Shown here piece by piece: positions 3,784 to 38,624 of a DNA stretch of 38,624 bases; the stretch's first letter is position 1, and each line of letters starts with the position of its first letter. The stretch covers positions 1-38,624 of the forward strand of contig NZ_JAGAYD010000004.1 in NCBI RefSeq assembly GCF_017940685.1, written 5' to 3'. The notes below the pieces were generated by a model. The model was not told the DNA's origin. It ran no database searches and was given only the letters and a program-made list of their open reading frames with translations. Both the position numbers and the translations under genes were made by a program. Source of the DNA: Butyrivibrio sp. Lineage in GTDB: Bacteria > Bacillota > Clostridia > Lachnospirales > Lachnospiraceae.

Positions 3784-3812
3784 TTGTGGTATTATATCAA
3801 TAATCATATACA
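3784..3812 (+). promoter_or_regulatory. Sigma-A promoter of the cobalamin operon
   Basis: TTGTGG at 3784-3789 and TATACA at 3807-3812 are separated by 17 bases and lie immediately before the riboswitch. Transcription would begin near 3819. Confidence 0.6.
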
Positions 3813-3818
3813 GAAAGC

Positions 3819-3998
3819 GGAAGGTGTCTGCGGGAATTAAGTTTCTGCGCAGGTGAAAAGGGAAGCGGGTGCAAGTCCCGCGCGATCTCGTCACCGTGAT
3901 TCGTTAGCTTTTTTCATAACCACTGGAGAAGTCCGGGAAGGGAAAAACAGCGCTGCCATGAGGCTGAAACGATCAGTCGGGAGACCTGCCCGTCGCTG
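3819..3998 (+). ncRNA. Cobalamin (B12) riboswitch
   Basis: The stretch carries hallmarks of the cobalamin aptamer: the early GGTGTCTGCGGG segment, GGTGAAAAGGGAAGC, GGGTGCAAGTCCCGCGC, ACCACTGGAGAAGTCCGGGAAGG-type core segments in order, and the B12 box AGTCGGGAGACCTGCC at 3975-3990. It lies between the promoter and the first gene of a cobalamin biosynthesis operon, the expected place. Binding of adenosylcobalamin is expected to reduce expression of the downstream genes. Confidence 0.95.
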
Positions 3999-4045
3999 CA
4001 TATGGGAAACCAGGCCACGAGGAATTGGCTATGCGAATGGACTTT

Positions 4046-32826: not shown

Positions 32827-32934
32827 AGCCACGGGGACGGTTCTACTGTCTCATTGTGCACAACAAGACACGGGGACGGTTCTCTTGACTTATTGTAAAC
32901 AACAAGTCAAAAGAACCGTCCCCGTGTCTTGTTT
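32827..32934. repeat. REP-like repeats, locus 3: two direct and one inverted copy
   Basis: Direct copies containing CACGGGGACGGTTCT start near 32829 and 32869, followed by an inverted copy reading AGAACCGTCCCCGTGTCTTG. The array fills the gap between the reductase and the convergent ammonium transporter gene. Confidence 0.9.
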
Positions 32935-32936
32935 TT
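32863..32936. terminator. Bidirectional terminator built from two inverted REP copies
   Basis: A stem of about 33 bp with one mismatch pairs 32863-32895 with 32900-32932, with a four-base loop. The plus strand ends in TTTTT. It lies between convergent genes, so the repeats appear to serve as their shared terminator. Confidence 0.75.
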
Positions 32937-34704
32937 ATTCTACATCTGCCAGGGCTGCGGCACCTTCTTCACCAGTCCTGATCTTTACTACATTGTCCAG
33001 GCTATATACGAAGATCTTGCCATCTCCGATGTGGCCTGTGTAAAGAGTCTTTTTAGCAGCTTCGATAACGTCCTCAACCGGGATCTTGCTGACAACAACT
33101 TCAAGCTTGATCTTGGGAAGGAGCGTGGCATCCATCTCAACTCCACGATACATGTCGCCAGAGCCTTTCTGGACACCACAGCCCATGACCTGAGTAACAG
33201 TCATTCCGGTAACTCCAAGCTCGTTCATAGCGCGGCGAAGCTTGTCGTAGCGGGACAACTTAGCGATGATGACAACTTTATGTATTCCTGACTCAGTATG
33301 AACAGGTGCTGTAACGACCGGTACTGAAGCCTTCTTCTGGAACTCGGAAGCCTCTTCGTAACCACTTACTCCAAGGTCTGTGTTCTCGTTTACTCCCATT
33401 GTAAGAGTGTTTGAAACGTCCATGATAGCGAATCCTGAGTAAGCTGATGCAAGGCCATGTTCTGTTGAATCAAGACCAAGGATCTCTTCTTCCTCAGTAA
33501 CTCTAAGGCCAAATATCTTTTTGATTGCTACGAATGTGATCGTGATAGTAACTGCTGTCCAGGCTGCTGTTGCTGCAAAACCTGCAAGCTGGACCCCAAG
33601 GAGCTTGAATCCGCCGCCATAGAACAGGCCAACCATCTCGTTTCCTGTTGCGTCTGCAATTGAGTAGCCAGGGGCTGCATTTGTAGCGAAAAGACCTACT
33701 GCCAGAGTTCCCCAGATACCATTTAAGCAGTGAACTGCAACGGCACCCACAGGATCATCGATGTGAAGCTTGTAATCAAGAAACCAAACACCAAAGCATA
33801 CAAGAAGCCCTGCCACAATACCAATGACTATAGCGCCGAAAGCATCTGTTACATCGCAGGGAGCTGTGATAGCAACAAGTCCTGCAAGTGAAGCGTTAAG
33901 ACACATTGAAACATCGGGCTTACCATATTTAAGCCATGTAAAGATCATACATGTAACTGTAGCCAGAGCTGGAGCAATTGTGGTTGTAACAAATACTGAT
34001 CCAAGCTGATCTACTGAAGTGCAGGCAGCGCCGTTAAATCCGTACCAGCCAAGCCAGAGAATGAATACGCCAAGAGCAGCTGCCACAAGGTTGTGACCAG
34101 GGAAAGCATTTACTTTAACTACCTTGCCGTCTTTATCTCTTTCGAACTTACCGATACGTGGTCCAAGGAATGCTGCACCGATGAGAGCTGAGATACCACC
34201 TACCATGTGAATACAGGTTGAACCTGCAAAATCATGGAAGCCAATCTGTGAAAGGAAGCCTCCGCCCCAGGTCCAGTGAGCTTCAATGGGATAAATGATT
34301 GCTGAGATAACTGCCGAGTACACACAATAAGAAATGAATTTTGTTCTCTCAGCCATTGATCCTGAAACGATGGTTGCTGTTGTTGCACAGAACACCAGGT
34401 TAAATACGAAGTTGGACCAGTCAAAGTTTGCATAGTTTGTGAAAATGTCAAATCCAGGTCTTCCGATGAATCCTGCCAGATCTTCACCAAGAAGAAGTCC
34501 AAATCCAATAAGAATGAATACTACAGTTCCAATACAGAAATCCATCAGGTTTTTCATGATGATATTTCCAGTGTTCTTGGCTCTGGTAAAGCCCGCCTCA
34601 CACATTGCAAAGCCTGCCTGCATCCAGAAAACCAGTGCTGCGCCAATTAAGAACCAGACGCTAAATACGGTACCATCTATAGCTTGTAAAATTTCTTCAC
34701 TCAT
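32935..34704 (-). CDS. amt: Ammonium transporter fused to a P-II regulatory domain
   Basis: The 589-residue protein has an Amt channel at ~1-430 with about eleven membrane segments. Family blocks are FWMQAGFAMCEAGFTRAKN, HMVGGISALIGAAFLGPR, FILWLGWYGFNGA, and a late AVAVHCLNGIWGTLAVGLF with the pore histidine. A linker leads to a P-II (GlnB/GlnK) domain at ~475-589: VVIIAKLSRYDKLRRAMNELG, a T-loop with GDMYRGVEM (the Tyr is the usual modification site), and GHIGDGKIFVYSLDNVVKIRTGEEG. The fusion suggests built-in gating by nucleotides and 2-oxoglutarate. GGAGGAG precedes the ATG. REP copies and the left leader-like element lie upstream. Confidence 0.96.
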   Translation of the reverse strand: MSEEILQAIDGTVFSVWFLIGAALVFWMQAGFAMCEAGFTRAKNTGNIIMKNLMDFCIGTVVFILIGFGLLLGEDLAGFIGRPGFDIFTNYANFDWSNFVFNLVFCATTATIVSGSMAERTKFISYCVYSAVISAIIYPIEAHWTWGGGFLSQIGFHDFAGSTCIHMVGGISALIGAAFLGPRIGKFERDKDGKVVKVNAFPGHNLVAAALGVFILWLGWYGFNGAACTSVDQLGSVFVTTTIAPALATVTCMIFTWLKYGKPDVSMCLNASLAGLVAITAPCDVTDAFGAIVIGIVAGLLVCFGVWFLDYKLHIDDPVGAVAVHCLNGIWGTLAVGLFATNAAPGYSIADATGNEMVGLFYGGGFKLLGVQLAGFAATAAWTAVTITITFVAIKKIFGLRVTEEEEILGLDSTEHGLASAYSGFAIMDVSNTLTMGVNENTDLGVSGYEEASEFQKKASVPVVTAPVHTESGIHKVVIIAKLSRYDKLRRAMNELGVTGMTVTQVMGCGVQKGSGDMYRGVEMDATLLPKIKLEVVVSKIPVEDVIEAAKKTLYTGHIGDGKIFVYSLDNVVKIRTGEEGAAALADVE

Positions 34705-34734: not shown

Positions 34735-34800
34735 CAGCCAAAAGAACCGTCCCCGTGACATGTTGTGCACAATGAGACAGAAGAAACGTCCCTGTGGCTT
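34735..34800 (-). repeat. REP-like repeats, locus 4 (2 copies) upstream of amt
   Basis: Two copies lie between the left leader-like element and amt, reading AAGAACCGTCCCCGTGACA and the diverged GAAACGTCCCTGTGGCTTG. They would be part of the amt transcript leader if it starts at the promoter near 35000. Confidence 0.85.
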
Positions 34801-34811
34801 GCCCGTGGCAC

Positions 34812-34977
34812 GAAAAAGACGATGCAATTTGGCTCATTGCTGTGCTAGCTGCAGCAGTGATGCCCCATTGCATCGTCTTTATAGTCGCAAAACGCTATTT
34901 ACCTGATCACCCAAAACAAAAAACGCCTTAGAGCAACGTGCTGTGCTCTAAGACGCCCTTGTCTTTATGAATTGTAA
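34812..34977 (-). ncRNA. Candidate structured leader RNA upstream of amt
   Basis: Transcription from the promoter at 34977-35005 would first make a hairpin at 34923-34956 (minus strand GCGTCTTAGAGCA paired with TGCTCTAAGGCGT), followed by a T-run. A linker with GTGATCAGGTAAATAG follows, then a second hairpin whose outer stem is AAGACGATGCAAT/ATTGCATCGTCTT, ending in TTTTT. The same order and linker appear in the inverted copy at 38246-38405 (plus strand), while loops and spacers differ. That pattern suggests selection on RNA structure. The transcript heads into the amt-P-II gene, so attenuation by nitrogen status is plausible but unproven. A mobile repeat carrying its own promoter is the alternative. 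Confidence 0.5.
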
Positions 34978-35020
34978 GTTTAAAGGATAAAAAAATCCTT
35001 GTCAAGTACTTTGTATACAA
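34977..35020 (-). promoter_or_regulatory. Promoter and palindrome driving the left leader toward amt
   Basis: On the minus strand TTGACA (35000-35005) and TAAACT (34977-34982) are 17 bases apart. The perfect palindrome TTGTATACAA (35011-35020) lies five bases upstream of the -35. The identical arrangement occurs at 38195-38239. Confidence 0.75.
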
Positions 35021-35030
35021 TTATGCAATT

Positions 35031-35408
35031 TTATTTATAGATGCTAGGAGTATGCATATTGTTGAGCATCGAAAGCAAATAGACACAGTATTGATTCATG
35101 CTGATACCTTCTCTTTTGGCGCTCTCGGCCAGTGACCGATGAAGACTCTTTGGAATTCTAAGCTTGAACTGCCCTGAATACTTCTCGTTGATCTCAGGTT
35201 CATTTATTGCGATTCCTTCTTCTAGTGCAGCTTCGAACCAAGTCTTTTTGGCGTCTTCGGCATTTTTTATTGCTTCTTCCACTGTACCACCCACAGTAAG
35301 GCACCCTGGTAACTCTGGAAATGAGATTACAAATCCTCCTTCATCGGTGTCCTTAACAATCTCCATCTTATATGGCTTTTTCATGTATTCATCAATTGTT
35401 TTCTTCAT
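35031..35408 (-). CDS. hicB: HicB-family antitoxin
   Basis: ATG 35408 is chosen because GGAGGAAGG precedes it at proper distance. The 125-residue product has a degraded RNase-H-like HicB domain (EIVKDTDEGGFVISFPELPGCLTVGGTVEEAIKNAEDA) and a C-terminal ribbon-helix-helix-type DNA-binding part (FKLRIPKSLHRSLAESAKREGISMNQYCVYLLS). It overlaps hicA by 17 bases. It would neutralise HicA and repress the operon at the palindrome in its promoter. Confidence 0.93.
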   Translation of the reverse strand: MKKTIDEYMKKPYKMEIVKDTDEGGFVISFPELPGCLTVGGTVEEAIKNAEDAKKTWFEAALEEGIAINEPEINEKYSGQFKLRIPKSLHRSLAESAKREGISMNQYCVYLLSMLNNMHTPSIYK

Positions 35409-35649
35409 CTGAATCACCTTCCTCCAAGACAACTCTCTTGACCATCTCTACATATACTTTCTTTATTGGTTCGTGCTTTGGAATAGTAATAGGGTTTTTT
35501 CCAGGCTTTCTAAATGTGTAATGACTACTTCCGCTGCTCGGTGCATGAATAGTGTAGCCATATGCCTCCAGGACACGTCTAAGTTCCTCGAATCTTAAAT
35601 CGTTTGATAGTGATAGAATCGCTGCTATAAGTTTGTCCCACTTTGACAT
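35392..35649 (-). CDS. hicA: HicA-family mRNA interferase toxin
   Basis: The 85-residue product has the HicA double-stranded-RNA-binding fold with FEELRRVLEAYGY, the catalytic-histidine segment SSGSSHYTFRKPG, and PITIPKHEPIKKVYV. GAGGTG precedes the ATG by five bases. Toxin-first order followed by overlapping hicB is the common arrangement. Expected activity is ribosome-independent mRNA cleavage when not bound by HicB. Confidence 0.93.
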   Translation of the reverse strand: MSKWDKLIAAILSLSNDLRFEELRRVLEAYGYTIHAPSSGSSHYTFRKPGKNPITIPKHEPIKKVYVEMVKRVVLEEGDSDEENN

Positions 35650-35661
35650 GTTTGCACCTCA

Positions 35662-35690
35662 ATTGTATTTGACACCATATACGGTGTCAA
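35662..35690 (-). promoter_or_regulatory. hicAB promoter with embedded operator palindrome
   Basis: On the minus strand TTGACA (35685-35690) and TACAAT (35662-35667) are exactly 17 bases apart. A perfect 8-bp dyad (TTGACACC and GGTGTCAA around a six-base centre, 35669-35690) covers the -35 and most of the spacer. A bound HicB dimer there would block RNA polymerase. Confidence 0.8.
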
Positions 35691-35740
35691 TATTTTGTAT
35701 TTTTTTATGAAAAATTCCTCTTTTGCTCAGCATAAATCTC

Positions 35741-35812
35741 TTGCATACTGTGGATTAATTCGTTATGATATAACCAACGGTTAGCGAATAGAATAATATA
35801 ACCATTGGTTAT
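35741..35812 (+). promoter_or_regulatory. XRE gene promoter with two operators
   Basis: TTGCAT (35741-35746) and TATGAT (35764-35769) are 17 bases apart. Just downstream are two near-identical dyads, TAACCAACGGTTA (35771-35783) and TAACCATTGGTTA (35799-35811), with centres 28 bases apart. They cover the transcription start and leader, as expected for autorepression. Confidence 0.75.
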
Positions 35813-35831
35813 TGTCAATAGGGAGAATATT

Positions 35832-36176
35832 ATGAATTTTCAGCCTGATAGATTAGTTCAGATACGCCAGAAGCTGGGCATTAACAAGGCAGAGGCAGCC
35901 AAGAGACTTAACATGTCTGCTATGGGTTATGGACGTTATGAGAACGGACAGAGGACTCCTTCGTATCAGACGATATGTTTTATTGCCCAGGTCTTTAACA
36001 CTTCACCGGAATATCTTTGCGGAATGGGTTCCGATGATGCAGCTAAGACAATTGTCATAGATCAGGATGAGGCACCTGAACTATTTAGCATGTTAGAGGA
36101 ACTTGGCTCCAATAGTGACTTGGAAAAGAGAATTCTTGGGTATTACCAAAAAATCAAGAATTCTGTGAAACACTAA
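35832..36176 (+). CDS. XRE-family helix-turn-helix regulator
   Basis: ATG 35832 follows AGGGAG by about seven bases; upstream in-frame codons fall in the operators. The 114-residue product has a Cro/cI-type domain at ~5-65 (LVQIRQKLGINKAEAAKRLNMSAMGYGRYENGQRTPSYQTICFIAQVFNTSPEYL). An acidic C-terminal part probably dimerises. It may repress itself through the TAACC dyads and perhaps the esterase gene 31 bases downstream. It does not look like part of the hicAB unit, which points the other way. Confidence 0.88.
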   Translation: MNFQPDRLVQIRQKLGINKAEAAKRLNMSAMGYGRYENGQRTPSYQTICFIAQVFNTSPEYLCGMGSDDAAKTIVIDQDEAPELFSMLEELGSNSDLEKRILGYYQKIKNSVKH

Positions 36177-36207
36177 ACCGCGTTTTCAAGCGCAGATAGA
36201 GGTGACC

Positions 36208-38142
36208 ATGTTTTATTTCCTGATTATTCTAATAACAATTTTATATATCGCAGTACTTGAGCTGTCCAAGAACATCCTTATCAGCTGGATCATCGCAGTA
36301 GCAGCCTGCGCAGCAATGATCGGTTATCGGGCTTATTGCAAAAAGAAATATGACGCCACTAGGGGCAGTGTTTTTGGGAATATCCATGGCTACGGCCCTG
36401 AGAATAAAAGGCGTGATATGCGCATCAGGGCGGTTTGCGCTATGCTTTTGTTTGTACTTGTACTTACAGCGAACTACTTCTTTACGCAGCCACCTGTTAA
36501 GCGCGTTCCGGTTGTTGATAATAAAAAGCCTGATGTCACGACGGTTGTAACTATAGATCAGGGGCAGCTTACCGGTGTCTATAATAAAGACCACACAGTT
36601 AAGGCATATGGCGGTATTCCTTATGCCAAGCCCCCTGTTGGGGAGCTGAGGTTCAGAGAACCGCAGACCCCTGATAAATGGGAAGGTGTAAGAGCCTGTG
36701 ATCATTTTGGACCTATGGCGATGCAGCCAAGGAGCAGCGTTATTTATGACTCTCTTGCAAGGATTCTGGGCTATCACGACTACCGCATCAGATTTGGGGA
36801 TGAGTATGTTGAAGAGATGAGCGAAGACTGCCTGTACCTTAATATCTTTTCTCCGGAAAAAGAGACTGATGACCTTCTGCCAGTAGTTCTCTATATCCAC
36901 GGTGGTTCTCTTACCACAGGCAAACCTTCCTACACAGAATATCGCGGCGAAGACCTGGCGAAAAAGGGTGTAGTGTACGTCAACTGCGCATACAGGCTGG
37001 GAGTGTTTGGTTACTACGCCGCAGAGGACCTAAAGAAAGAGTCTCCAAACGGCACTACTGGTAACTATGGCCTTCTTGACCAGATAGCAGCTCTTAACTG
37101 GGTATATAACAACATCAAGGCATTTGGCGGAGACCCTAAGAGAATCACCATTGCAGGTGAGTCAGCTGGAGCATCCAGCGTCAATGCAATTTGCGCTTCG
37201 CCCCTTTCCAAGGGGAAATTTCAGTACGCAATTGCTGAATCCAGCTCTGTCCTGCCCAAAGAGCCTTTCCACACTTTCAGATATTACGAGGATGCCATCG
37301 CCACTGGAGACGCAGTCAGAAGCGAGTTCCGGGTAGAAACCTCAGAGGAACTTAGAAATATTCCGGCAAAAGAGCTTGTGACCACCATTACTGATAACTC
37401 CGCTATGACAGTTGATGGCTATGCACTAACCCAGCAGCCCTATCTTACATATGAACAGGGTAAAAACAATGAGAAAGCTCTTTTAAACGGATTCAATGCC
37501 AAGGAGGCTGATGCATTTTTGTTAGACGACGAGGCTACAAGGGACAACTATGTGGAGCTTCTTGCCAAGGACATGGACGACTACGCAGAGGAAATGGCAC
37601 AGGTTGTCCCGTATAACCTGCCACAGCGTGATCAGCACATAATAATTGATAAGCTTGGAGAAGCCAAGGGAGCCCTTAACGTGGCTTACAGTGCTATGTG
37701 GTTTACTTATCCCCACTATGTTTGGAACAACTACATTGTTAAGCAGGGCATTCCGGCTTATGAGTACTATTTTACCAAGACCAATAACGTCCTTACCAAC
37801 TATCATGCAGGAGAACTGCCCTACGCCTACGGCAATCTCTGGCGTCATCCCGGGCTCTACGATGACAGCGACTATGAACTGTCTGAGATCATGCAGAGCT
37901 ACTGGGTAAACTTTATTTATAACGGAGATCCAAACGGTAGCTATCGCCAGACAGATGAACCAGGAGATGGTATCTACAACACAGAAGTAGCTGACAAGCC
38001 CCTTCCTGTCTGGGAGATGAGAAGTAAAGGGCAGGATAAGCTCCTTCAGCTTGATACAACTCTCCAGATGATCGATGATCCAAACCTGGAGATATACAAG
38101 GTCATCGACAAATATATGGATGAAAAGGTCAAGGGCAGATAA
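36208..38142 (+). CDS. Membrane-anchored type-B carboxylesterase
   Basis: ATG 36208 is chosen because AGAGG lies five bases before it. The 644-residue product has three N-terminal hydrophobic segments (MFYFLIILITILYIAVL, ILISWIIAVAACAAMIGY, and AVCAMLLFVLVLTANYFF). An esterase domain follows from ~110: YGGIPYAKPPVGELRF, EDCLYLNIFSP, oxyanion YIHGGSLTTG, and the nucleophile GESAGASS. A likely acid lies at NGFNAKEADAF and the histidine in NYHAGELPYAYG. The domain is the para-nitrobenzyl esterase/cholinesterase type and is likely placed outside the membrane. A role in removing acyl esters from plant or other substrates is possible. It lies 31 bases after the XRE gene. Confidence 0.93.
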   Translation: MFYFLIILITILYIAVLELSKNILISWIIAVAACAAMIGYRAYCKKKYDATRGSVFGNIHGYGPENKRRDMRIRAVCAMLLFVLVLTANYFFTQPPVKRVPVVDNKKPDVTTVVTIDQGQLTGVYNKDHTVKAYGGIPYAKPPVGELRFREPQTPDKWEGVRACDHFGPMAMQPRSSVIYDSLARILGYHDYRIRFGDEYVEEMSEDCLYLNIFSPEKETDDLLPVVLYIHGGSLTTGKPSYTEYRGEDLAKKGVVYVNCAYRLGVFGYYAAEDLKKESPNGTTGNYGLLDQIAALNWVYNNIKAFGGDPKRITIAGESAGASSVNAICASPLSKGKFQYAIAESSSVLPKEPFHTFRYYEDAIATGDAVRSEFRVETSEELRNIPAKELVTTITDNSAMTVDGYALTQQPYLTYEQGKNNEKALLNGFNAKEADAFLLDDEATRDNYVELLAKDMDDYAEEMAQVVPYNLPQRDQHIIIDKLGEAKGALNVAYSAMWFTYPHYVWNNYIVKQGIPAYEYYFTKTNNVLTNYHAGELPYAYGNLWRHPGLYDDSDYELSEIMQSYWVNFIYNGDPNGSYRQTDEPGDGIYNTEVADKPLPVWEMRSKGQDKLLQLDTTLQMIDDPNLEIYKVIDKYMDEKVKGR

Positions 38143-38194
38143 AAAACAAGCTTTGTTATAAACGGAGTAACAGGCCAGAAGCAGAATTGCATAA

Positions 38195-38239
38195 TTGTAT
38201 ACAAAAATACTTGACAAAGTATTTTTCATCCTTTAAACT
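38195..38239 (+). promoter_or_regulatory. Promoter and palindrome driving the right leader
   Basis: The palindrome TTGTATACAA (38195-38204), TTGACA (38211-38216) and TAAACT (38234-38239) with a 17-base spacer match the left copy. Transcription would start near 38246 and run toward the gene at 38551. Confidence 0.75.
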
Positions 38240-38245
38240 TACAAT

Positions 38246-38405
38246 TCATAAAGACAAGGGCGTCTTAGAGCAGGACTATACTGCTCTAAGGCGCTTTTTG
38301 CTTATGAGTGATCAGGTGAATAAGGGACTTACAAATATTAAGACGATGCAATGGGGCATCTTGCTGCGAAAAGCGCGGCATGATCTCGTTGTGTCGTCTT
38401 TTTGT
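38246..38405 (+). ncRNA. Candidate structured leader RNA upstream of the asparagine synthase-like gene
   Basis: Hairpin 1 pairs 38260-38273 with 38281-38294 (14 bp with one G-T, seven-base loop) and is followed by TTTTTG, a good terminator shape. The linker contains GTGATCAGGTGAATA. Hairpin 2 pairs 38340-38353 with 38387-38400 (14 bp with three G-T pairs) with an inner TGCTGCG/CGCGGCA stem, and ends in TTTTT. Relative to the left copy, outer-stem changes keep pairing through G-T pairs. Two terminators before a gene suggest attenuation, or a short independent RNA of about 55 bases. Confidence 0.5.
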
Positions 38406-38421
38406 GTGTAGAGCATTTGTG

Positions 38422-38526
38422 GTGACACGGGGACGGTTCTTTTGTCTCATTGTGTACAACAAGTCAAAAGAACCGTCCCCATGTCTCATTGCACACAATG
38501 AGACAAAAGAACCGTCCCCGTGTCAC
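38422..38526. repeat. REP-like repeats, locus 5: one direct and two inverted copies
   Basis: A direct copy (GACACGGGGACGGTTCTTTT) at ~38423 is followed by two inverted copies (AAAAGAACCGTCCCC) at ~38466 and ~38505. The direct copy can pair with either inverted copy, giving alternative hairpins in the leader of the gene at 38551. Confidence 0.9.
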
Positions 38527-38550
38527 GAAAAATATATGGAGGAAAGAAGT

Positions 38551-38624
38551 ATGTGCGCAATTCTTACATACACCAGGAAAGAGGCTGATGAAGCGTATTT
38601 CAAAGAGCTTCTTGAAAGGACCGC
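38551..38624 (+). CDS. N-terminal fragment of a probable class II glutamine amidotransferase (asparagine synthase-like)
   Basis: The window ends 24 codons into this gene, so it is cut by the window and not necessarily broken. GGAGG lies seven bases before the ATG. The product starts MCAILTYTRKEADEAYFKELLERT. Cys2 directly after the initiator methionine is the nucleophile position of Ntn-type glutamine amidotransferases such as AsnB. The helix ending in ERT is where AsnB proteins lead into the RGPD motif. The assignment rests on this short stretch and is tentative. Confidence 0.5.
   Translation, partial: MCAILTYTRKEADEAYFKELLERT

Follow-up and report, generated by a model that had tools for sequence, protein, structure and literature searches.

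Candidate ANTAR-type antiterminators with one hexaloop per terminator upstream of nitrogen-assimilation genes in Butyrivibrio

The window analysed here, a stretch of 38,624 nt from Butyrivibrio sp. (contig NZ_JAGAYD010000004.1), contains two duplicated leaders of about 200 nt, inverted to each other and each made of a promoter and two terminators. One precedes an amt-P-II fusion gene and the other a gene for asparagine synthase B (asnB). How can these genes be expressed when two terminators stand between them and their promoter? We consider it likely that the leaders are paired conditional intrinsic terminators under the control of an ANTAR-domain protein and, judging from the sequence, that they probably activate nitrogen genes by preventing termination. 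An ANTAR-type regulator was one of the options named in a sequence-only reading of the window, and the evidence given below points to it.

Hexaloop hairpins in two inverted leaders

Within each leader the order is promoter, terminator 1, linker, terminator 2, REP-like repeats and gene. The two copies share 81% mean column identity (alignment of 401 columns) and fold more stably than their dinucleotide shuffles (z of -6.72 and -8.84; 0 of 200 shuffles as low for either leader). Their features are as follows.

38195..38204, + strand: TTGTATACAA palindrome 5' of the asnB promoter, possible operator
38211..38239, + strand: predicted sigma-70 type promoter TTGACA-N17-TAAACT of the asnB-glnN-gltB operon
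38251..38266, + strand: hexaloop hairpin 1, AAGAC-AAGGGC-GTCTT, candidate ANTAR-type antiterminator (dG -3.2 kcal/mol; stem conservation)
38256..38299, + strand: terminator 1, with the GGGCGTCTT arm in common with hexaloop hairpin 1 (dG -28.5)
38308..38322, + strand: linker GTGATCAGGTGAATA, so far seen only in the two window copies
38345..38360, + strand: hexaloop hairpin 2, GATGC-AATGGG-GCATC (dG -5.0 kcal/mol)
38340..38403, + strand: terminator 2, whose 5' arm holds hexaloop hairpin 2 (dG -34.8)
38423..38524, no strand: REP-like inverted repeats between leader and asnB
38552..38624, + strand: 5' part of asnB (asparagine synthase B); the rest is on contig C40 with glnN and gltB
35011..35020, - strand: TTGTATACAA palindrome 5' of the amt promoter
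34977..35005, - strand: predicted sigma-70 type promoter TTGACA-N17-TAAACT of amt-P-II
34950..34965, - strand: hexaloop hairpin 1 of the amt leader (folding)
34918..34960, - strand: terminator 1 of the amt leader (dG -22.1)
34896..34910, - strand: linker of the amt leader, GTGATCAGGTAAATA
34859..34874, - strand: hexaloop hairpin 2 of the amt leader (folding)
34813..34879, - strand: terminator 2 of the amt leader (dG -34.7)
34736..34809, no strand: REP-like repeats between leader and amt
32935..34704, - strand: amt-P-II fusion gene (ammonium transporter and P-II domain)

In both copies, the 5' arm of each terminator can pair alternatively with bases lying just before or within it, which gives a short hairpin. 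The loops of these hairpins, AAGGGC in terminator 1 and AATGGG in terminator 2, have six nucleotides with A in first and G in fourth position, a combination found in 4 of the 4 window hairpins; the stems are 5 bp long and the closing pair is C-G. An AnnGnn hexaloop, with A first and G fourth, is the recognition signature of ANTAR proteins (PMC3369931). The short hairpins (-3.2 and -5.0 kcal/mol) have an arm in common with the terminators (-22 to -35 kcal/mol), so that the two structures are mutually exclusive, and each short hairpin is fully transcribed before the 3' arm of its terminator exists.

The sequence-only reading had recognized the paired inverted leaders, and the palindrome, the TTGACA-N17-TAAACT promoter and the linker are all present at both sites. 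It gave the stems as 13-14 bp, whereas the terminators are longer: the stem of terminator 1 spans 17-18 bp and terminator 2 folds as a long interrupted stem. The G-T replacements it saw in the second stem of the right copy do exist. They are G-U swaps confined to the 3' arm, the 5' arm being the same in both copies, and they leave unchanged hexaloop hairpin 2, which lies inside this invariant arm. The loops had been judged unlike ANTAR targets; this is true of the terminator loops, but the nested alternative hairpins carry the AnnGnn hexaloop. On paired hexaloops the reading was partly right: none has a second hexaloop 5-12 nt away, yet a single one is present per terminator.

We propose that RNA polymerase would by default halt at terminator 1 or at terminator 2. 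When nitrogen is limiting, the presumed direction of the signal, an ANTAR protein, which the source organism is assumed to possess, would bind the hexaloop hairpin that arises early at each terminator's 5' base. Because the 3' arm of the hairpin is part of the terminator stem, holding the hairpin would prevent the terminator from forming, and amt-P-II and asnB-glnN-gltB would be transcribed. One hexaloop per terminator, near the transcription start, would thus act instead of the published tandem pair.

It could be argued that the hairpins are plain insulating terminators, duplicated along with the promoter and unregulated, given that the copies are recent duplicates, that tandem terminators are common and that the hairpins are strong. 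However, terminators placed between a promoter and its own genes would silence those genes; moreover, the 5' arm of the terminator covaries with bases of the 5' flank that lie beyond it, and nitrogen genes recur downstream. We therefore hold this explanation to be very improbable. Duplication does bear on the linker. Since the linker is not seen in the same-genus amt leader L003, its likeness in the two copies, previously taken as a functional sign, would be explained most simply by recent duplication within the genome.

REP copies followed by a nitrogen-assimilation gene were confirmed 3' of each leader. The gene of the right-hand leader is truncated by the end of the window. Contig C40 of the same genome opens with 141 nt identical to window positions 38484-38624; it goes on to encode asparagine synthase B and, after it, a glutamine synthetase of type III and the large subunit of glutamate synthase (asnB-glnN-gltB). 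The left leader reads into amt-P-II and the right one into asnB-glnN-gltB, and therefore both appear to govern genes of ammonium uptake and assimilation.

Covariation and recurrence of the hairpin

The best 80 of at least 591 amt-P-II loci were sampled, with 500 nt upstream of each gene (only 104 nt in one case). In these regions 111 terminator-like structures were called by script. An alternative hairpin with a 6-nt loop and a stem of 5 bp or more can form in 46 of them, while loop sizes 3-5 and 7-10 account for 5-18 each. Although not chosen by loop sequence, these 46 hairpins carry A in first position in 37 cases and G in fourth position in 40. The control, 353 such structures located 3' of these amt-P-II genes, has no peak at six nucleotides (41 vs 20-56), and A1 and G4 occur together in 9 of the 41; six of the nine are on the gene strand and look by eye like real elements. 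A loop RANGGN on a stem of at least 3 bp identifies 76 elements in 65 of the 80 amt loci, a lower figure from one script, as some of the 15 negatives, such as L077, L090 and L094, seem by eye to have the element.

Covariation of the stem had been named beforehand as a test, and it is present beyond shuffles. The short stem of 60 distinct hairpins has 66 doubly changed cells, compared with 20.7 +/- 3.5 after shuffling (0 of 500 as high), and slid registers of the same stem give 0-15. Because this set had been preselected for 3 pairs, the test was redone without stem requirement: the 76 distinct cases then have 230 formed pairs at positions 2-5, whereas 2000 shuffles average 162 and never exceed 195. 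Neither set of shuffles takes relatedness into account. The loop-closing pair is C-G in 118 of 118 elements of the combined stem-selected set (76 from amt loci, 4 from the window and 38 from the genus regulon described below).

These counts also bear on regulation acting mainly on the DNA through the TTGTATACAA palindrome, with terminators that merely reduce basal expression. The palindrome is identical in both copies, just 5' of the -35 box, and TGTATACA lies upstream of 6 of 79 amt genes against 0.3 after shuffling. On the other hand, TGTATACA also occurs inside the gene in 3 of 79, TGTATAC is commoner in the within-gene control (11/79) than upstream (7/79), and few amt leaders have the palindrome whereas 65 of 80 have the hexaloop; we find such DNA-level control scarcely probable. 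As a general operator TTGTATACAA was rejected, being too rare across leaders. It is possible that it serves as a DNA operator of the genus, and the palindrome and hexaloop mechanisms could coexist.

A covariance model of the element, R1, was built from 44 sequences over 51 positions. In relatives, with the downstream genes listed, its homologues recur before nitrogen genes. The cis-acting nitrogen attenuator proposed in the sequence-only reading is thus supported, as far as sequence goes, by homologues before nitrogen genes, covarying stems and a promoter directly upstream. The source genome has nine R1 matches at E<=1. The hexaloop hairpin is present in four of these: the two leaders of the window, one element before an agcS-type symporter gene (C241) and one at the edge of contig C12, whose gene is off the contig. 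R1 also matches plain terminators; L145, L146, L147, L150 and L151 of the source genome were judged to be without the hairpin, and a script found the element pattern missing from 6 of 39 genus regions and 3 of 26 class loci.

In the genus, the genes 3' of elements include amt-P-II, type I glnA, dapL, glnQ, agcS, pyrG, purF, aspA, pxpB and genes for RidA-like and gamma-glutamyl-GABA hydrolase-like proteins. Of a sample compared with NCBIfam, PxpB is above cut-off; LL-DAP aminotransferase, aspartate ammonia-lyase and agcS are partial sequences just or well below it; and RidA, the gamma-glutamyl-GABA hydrolase-like protein and an amino-acid ABC binding protein are also below cut-off. The names glnQ, pyrG, purF and glnA come from sequence reading, with Pfam support for glnA at L117. 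Some matches precede genes with no obvious nitrogen role, namely a MATE-like transporter (L195), RelA/SpoT-like proteins (L198, L201) and a permuted ATP-grasp protein (L221). The glnA leaders of L210, L212, L213 and L214 carry the element, and the top matches in the class Clostridia precede genes named by sequence reading as glnN, amt, P-II, asnA-like and guaA. Searching with the whole leader by blastn in 250 family genomes matched 14 genomes; apart from the window and L003, the matches are mostly short pieces of 24-53 nt, which were left unused. Several same-genus amt leaders (L152-L158, L160, L161, L163, L170) have after terminator 1 a CCGCGGA/CCGGAG block followed by GTATACAxGTATTC, which was not seen on reading the window copies.

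Promoter-proximal single hexaloops and the ANTAR protein

Promoters were sought upstream of the 118 elements, two of the 40 chosen genus loci (L145, L182) having been left out as they lack the hexaloop. A promoter scoring above the 95th percentile of shuffled sequence was found for 73 of the 118, and in 71 of these 73 the distance from the end of the -10 box to the loop is 9-22 nt; in shuffled sequence, 4 of 26 promoters fall within 9-25 nt. Since the -10 box ends so close to the loop, we infer that the RNA starts within a few bases of the hairpin. An AnnGnn partner within 32 nt upstream is found for 5 of 118 elements against 8.3 expected from shuffles, and one with 4-bp stems for 3 against 2.5. 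The published P1 hairpin upstream of the hexaloop was rejected for want of any excess over shuffles.

The two hairpins of a window leader are 78 nt (asnB) or 75 nt (amt) apart. Might they be the published P1/P2 pair of canonical ANTAR control, simply set far apart? Two hexaloops do occur in both window leaders and in 11 of the 65 element-bearing amt leaders. However, the other 54 have only one, and the spacing of the double ones varies widely. The distances in the window also exceed the limits described for EutV: eut linkers have 5-12 nt, with 3 or 14 nt impairing or abolishing induction in vivo (PMC3369931), and 20 extra linker nucleotides abolish antitermination by EutV in vitro (PMC8934654). 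We thus regard a distant P1/P2 pair as unlikely. From crystal structures of EutV-RNA complexes, one hexaloop has been proposed as the minimal ANTAR binding motif (PMC8934654). Pairs of hexaloop terminators with a spacing of about 75 nt are seen again in L173-L177, L180, L187, L220, L221 and others, several of which are glnQ-type ABC transporter loci from other genomes of the genus.

The ANTAR domain (PF03861), mostly in a single copy, is present in 36 of the 40 genomes searched in the family and in 56 of the 61 in the genus. Its gene lies directly 3' of type I glnA in 7 of the 7 loci viewed, of 42 fetched, and the proteins match the solved structures of Rv1626, EutV and AmiR. Two of the 42 loci gave no protein by pattern, and 21 of the other 40 were aligned. 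The position of the phospho-acceptor aspartate of the receiver, placed by motif reading, is glycine in 19 of the 21 and serine in 2, so the proteins likely carry a pseudo-receiver like that of AmiR. Lysines and arginines number 10.3 on average in the 30 residues that precede the ANTAR core, compared with 7/29 in EutV, 5/22 in AmiR and 6/29 in Rv1626. We infer that the ANTAR protein acts independently of phosphorylation, and speculate that it is perhaps controlled by the neighbouring glutamine synthetase. More broadly, the elements could form a large clostridial nitrogen regulon and a second class of ANTAR switch, in which each terminator has one hexaloop, at the extreme 5' end of the RNA, and the ANTAR protein (pseudo-receiver and basic linker) works without phosphorylation and is set by the co-transcribed glutamine synthetase; we advance this wider picture only tentatively and think it rather doubtful as a whole.

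Element presence is associated with ANTAR genes across 77 Clostridia genomes, those without a match over the Pfam cut-off being counted as ANTAR-less. At E<=1e-5, 17 of the 42 genomes with an ANTAR gene have R1 matches, as do 2 of the 35 others (Fisher p 4e-4, relatedness ignored). Of the 30 class loci returned, 26 were examined: the two ANTAR-less matches at E<=1e-5 are a real-looking glnN element (L233, G340) and a plain terminator (L239), and plain terminators were also seen at L244 (2e-5, ANTAR-less) and L240 (with an ANTAR gene). Among 20 hand-picked genomes at E<=0.1, the 13 with an ANTAR gene have 4-12 matches and the seven without have 0, 0, 1, 2, 4, 8 and 9.

Several results weigh against an ANTAR protein acting on these leaders. 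At the looser threshold of E<=0.01 the association is weaker (31/42 vs 16/35, p 0.019). No ANTAR domain was found in the source genome (94.8% complete, 281 contigs) by tblastn or by the Pfam model, a search that was also without match in all 14 control genomes. Convincing elements occur where no ANTAR gene was detected, in G264 and G270 (81-83% complete), G300 (95%), G340 (96%) and G344 (97%), as do weaker ones in G302 and G016. Finally, the second hexaloop at 5-12 nt that the published mechanism needs was not found in the window, and among the 118 elements an upstream partner is no more frequent than in shuffles. As the genomes are drafts that are 81-97% complete, it is plausible that the ANTAR gene was missed in them. 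No match to type I glnA was found in the source genome either; its only two PF00120 matches are type III, by Pfam on C40 and by reading on C202. That the gene beside which ANTAR is found elsewhere is missing too would fit a gap in the draft as well as genuine loss of the locus.

Elements in six genomes without a detected ANTAR gene, that of the window included, would be expected if the ligand of the short hairpin were a different protein or a metabolite, the latter making it a nitrogen-sensing riboswitch. Yet the size of the loop, its A1 and G4 and the C-G closing pair fit the ANTAR signature, the elements go with ANTAR genes across genomes, and Rfam gave no family at gathering threshold, only sub-threshold matches. 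A hairpin of 16 nt is also small for a metabolite aptamer. We judge a different ligand improbable and keep to control by an ANTAR protein.

Surroundings of the leaders and relation to known systems

Between the leaders lie a HicAB-like toxin-antitoxin pair (35031-35649, - strand), an HTH_3 gene (35805-36176, + strand) and, after it, a carboxylesterase gene (36202-38142). A REP-like inverted repeat with the core GGGGACGGTTCT occurs at window positions 32830-32928, 34736-34809 and 38423-38524 and genome-wide; 73 exact matches to GGGGACGGTTCTNTTG, often in inverted pairs, make it a genome-wide repeat family. A cobalamin riboswitch at 3805-4007 reaches the Rfam gathering score (89.3 bits). No Rfam family reached gathering score in either leader or in the elements of 12 related loci. 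Matches at E<=1 (miRNA-like, thermometer) were discarded as below their family thresholds, and the miRNA-like ones of low E fall on the REP inverted repeat.

In the loci viewed the ANTAR gene directly follows type I glnA, as in the clostridial glnA-ANTAR gene pair (NitR of Clostridium). In the open-licence literature we found no RNA target of the clostridial glnA-linked ANTAR protein, no description of ANTAR control in Lachnospiraceae and none of single-hexaloop ANTAR terminators as a natural regulon, although the supplementary hit tables of PMC3369931, which lie outside this search, may list some loci; 'single hexaloop' together with ANTAR was found in the literature searched only in PMC8934654. 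P-II and ammonium transporter genes are already named as ANTAR-linked in the main text of PMC3369931. If our interpretation is true, these leaders would be natural single-hexaloop ANTAR targets, bearing on the open question of whether the second hexaloop is necessary, and a candidate master switch for the assimilation of ammonium in Lachnospiraceae that abound in gut and rumen, with a sequence model available to find further targets.

In its proposed working, the system resembles ANTAR antitermination yet falls outside the dual-hexaloop definition. Like the dual-hexaloop antiterminators EutV/eut, NasR/nasF and AmiR/amiE (Ramesh et al. 2012, PMC3369931), the leaders stand before nitrogen genes and have a small hairpin whose loop of six nucleotides carries A1 and G4 and whose stem has an arm in common with an intrinsic terminator; the stems of the window hairpins, with 5 bp, exceed the 3 bp given there as a minimum. 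Unlike those targets, which have two hexaloops with a 5-12 nt linker, they have one per terminator, close to the predicted start, often with A2 and G5 and with a constant C-G closing pair. In the eut system described in PMC8934654, antitermination still requires both hexaloops, closely spaced, whereas here each terminator has one. The minimal motif of the same study predicts that one hexaloop is enough for binding, and the leaders described here would be a natural instance of it.

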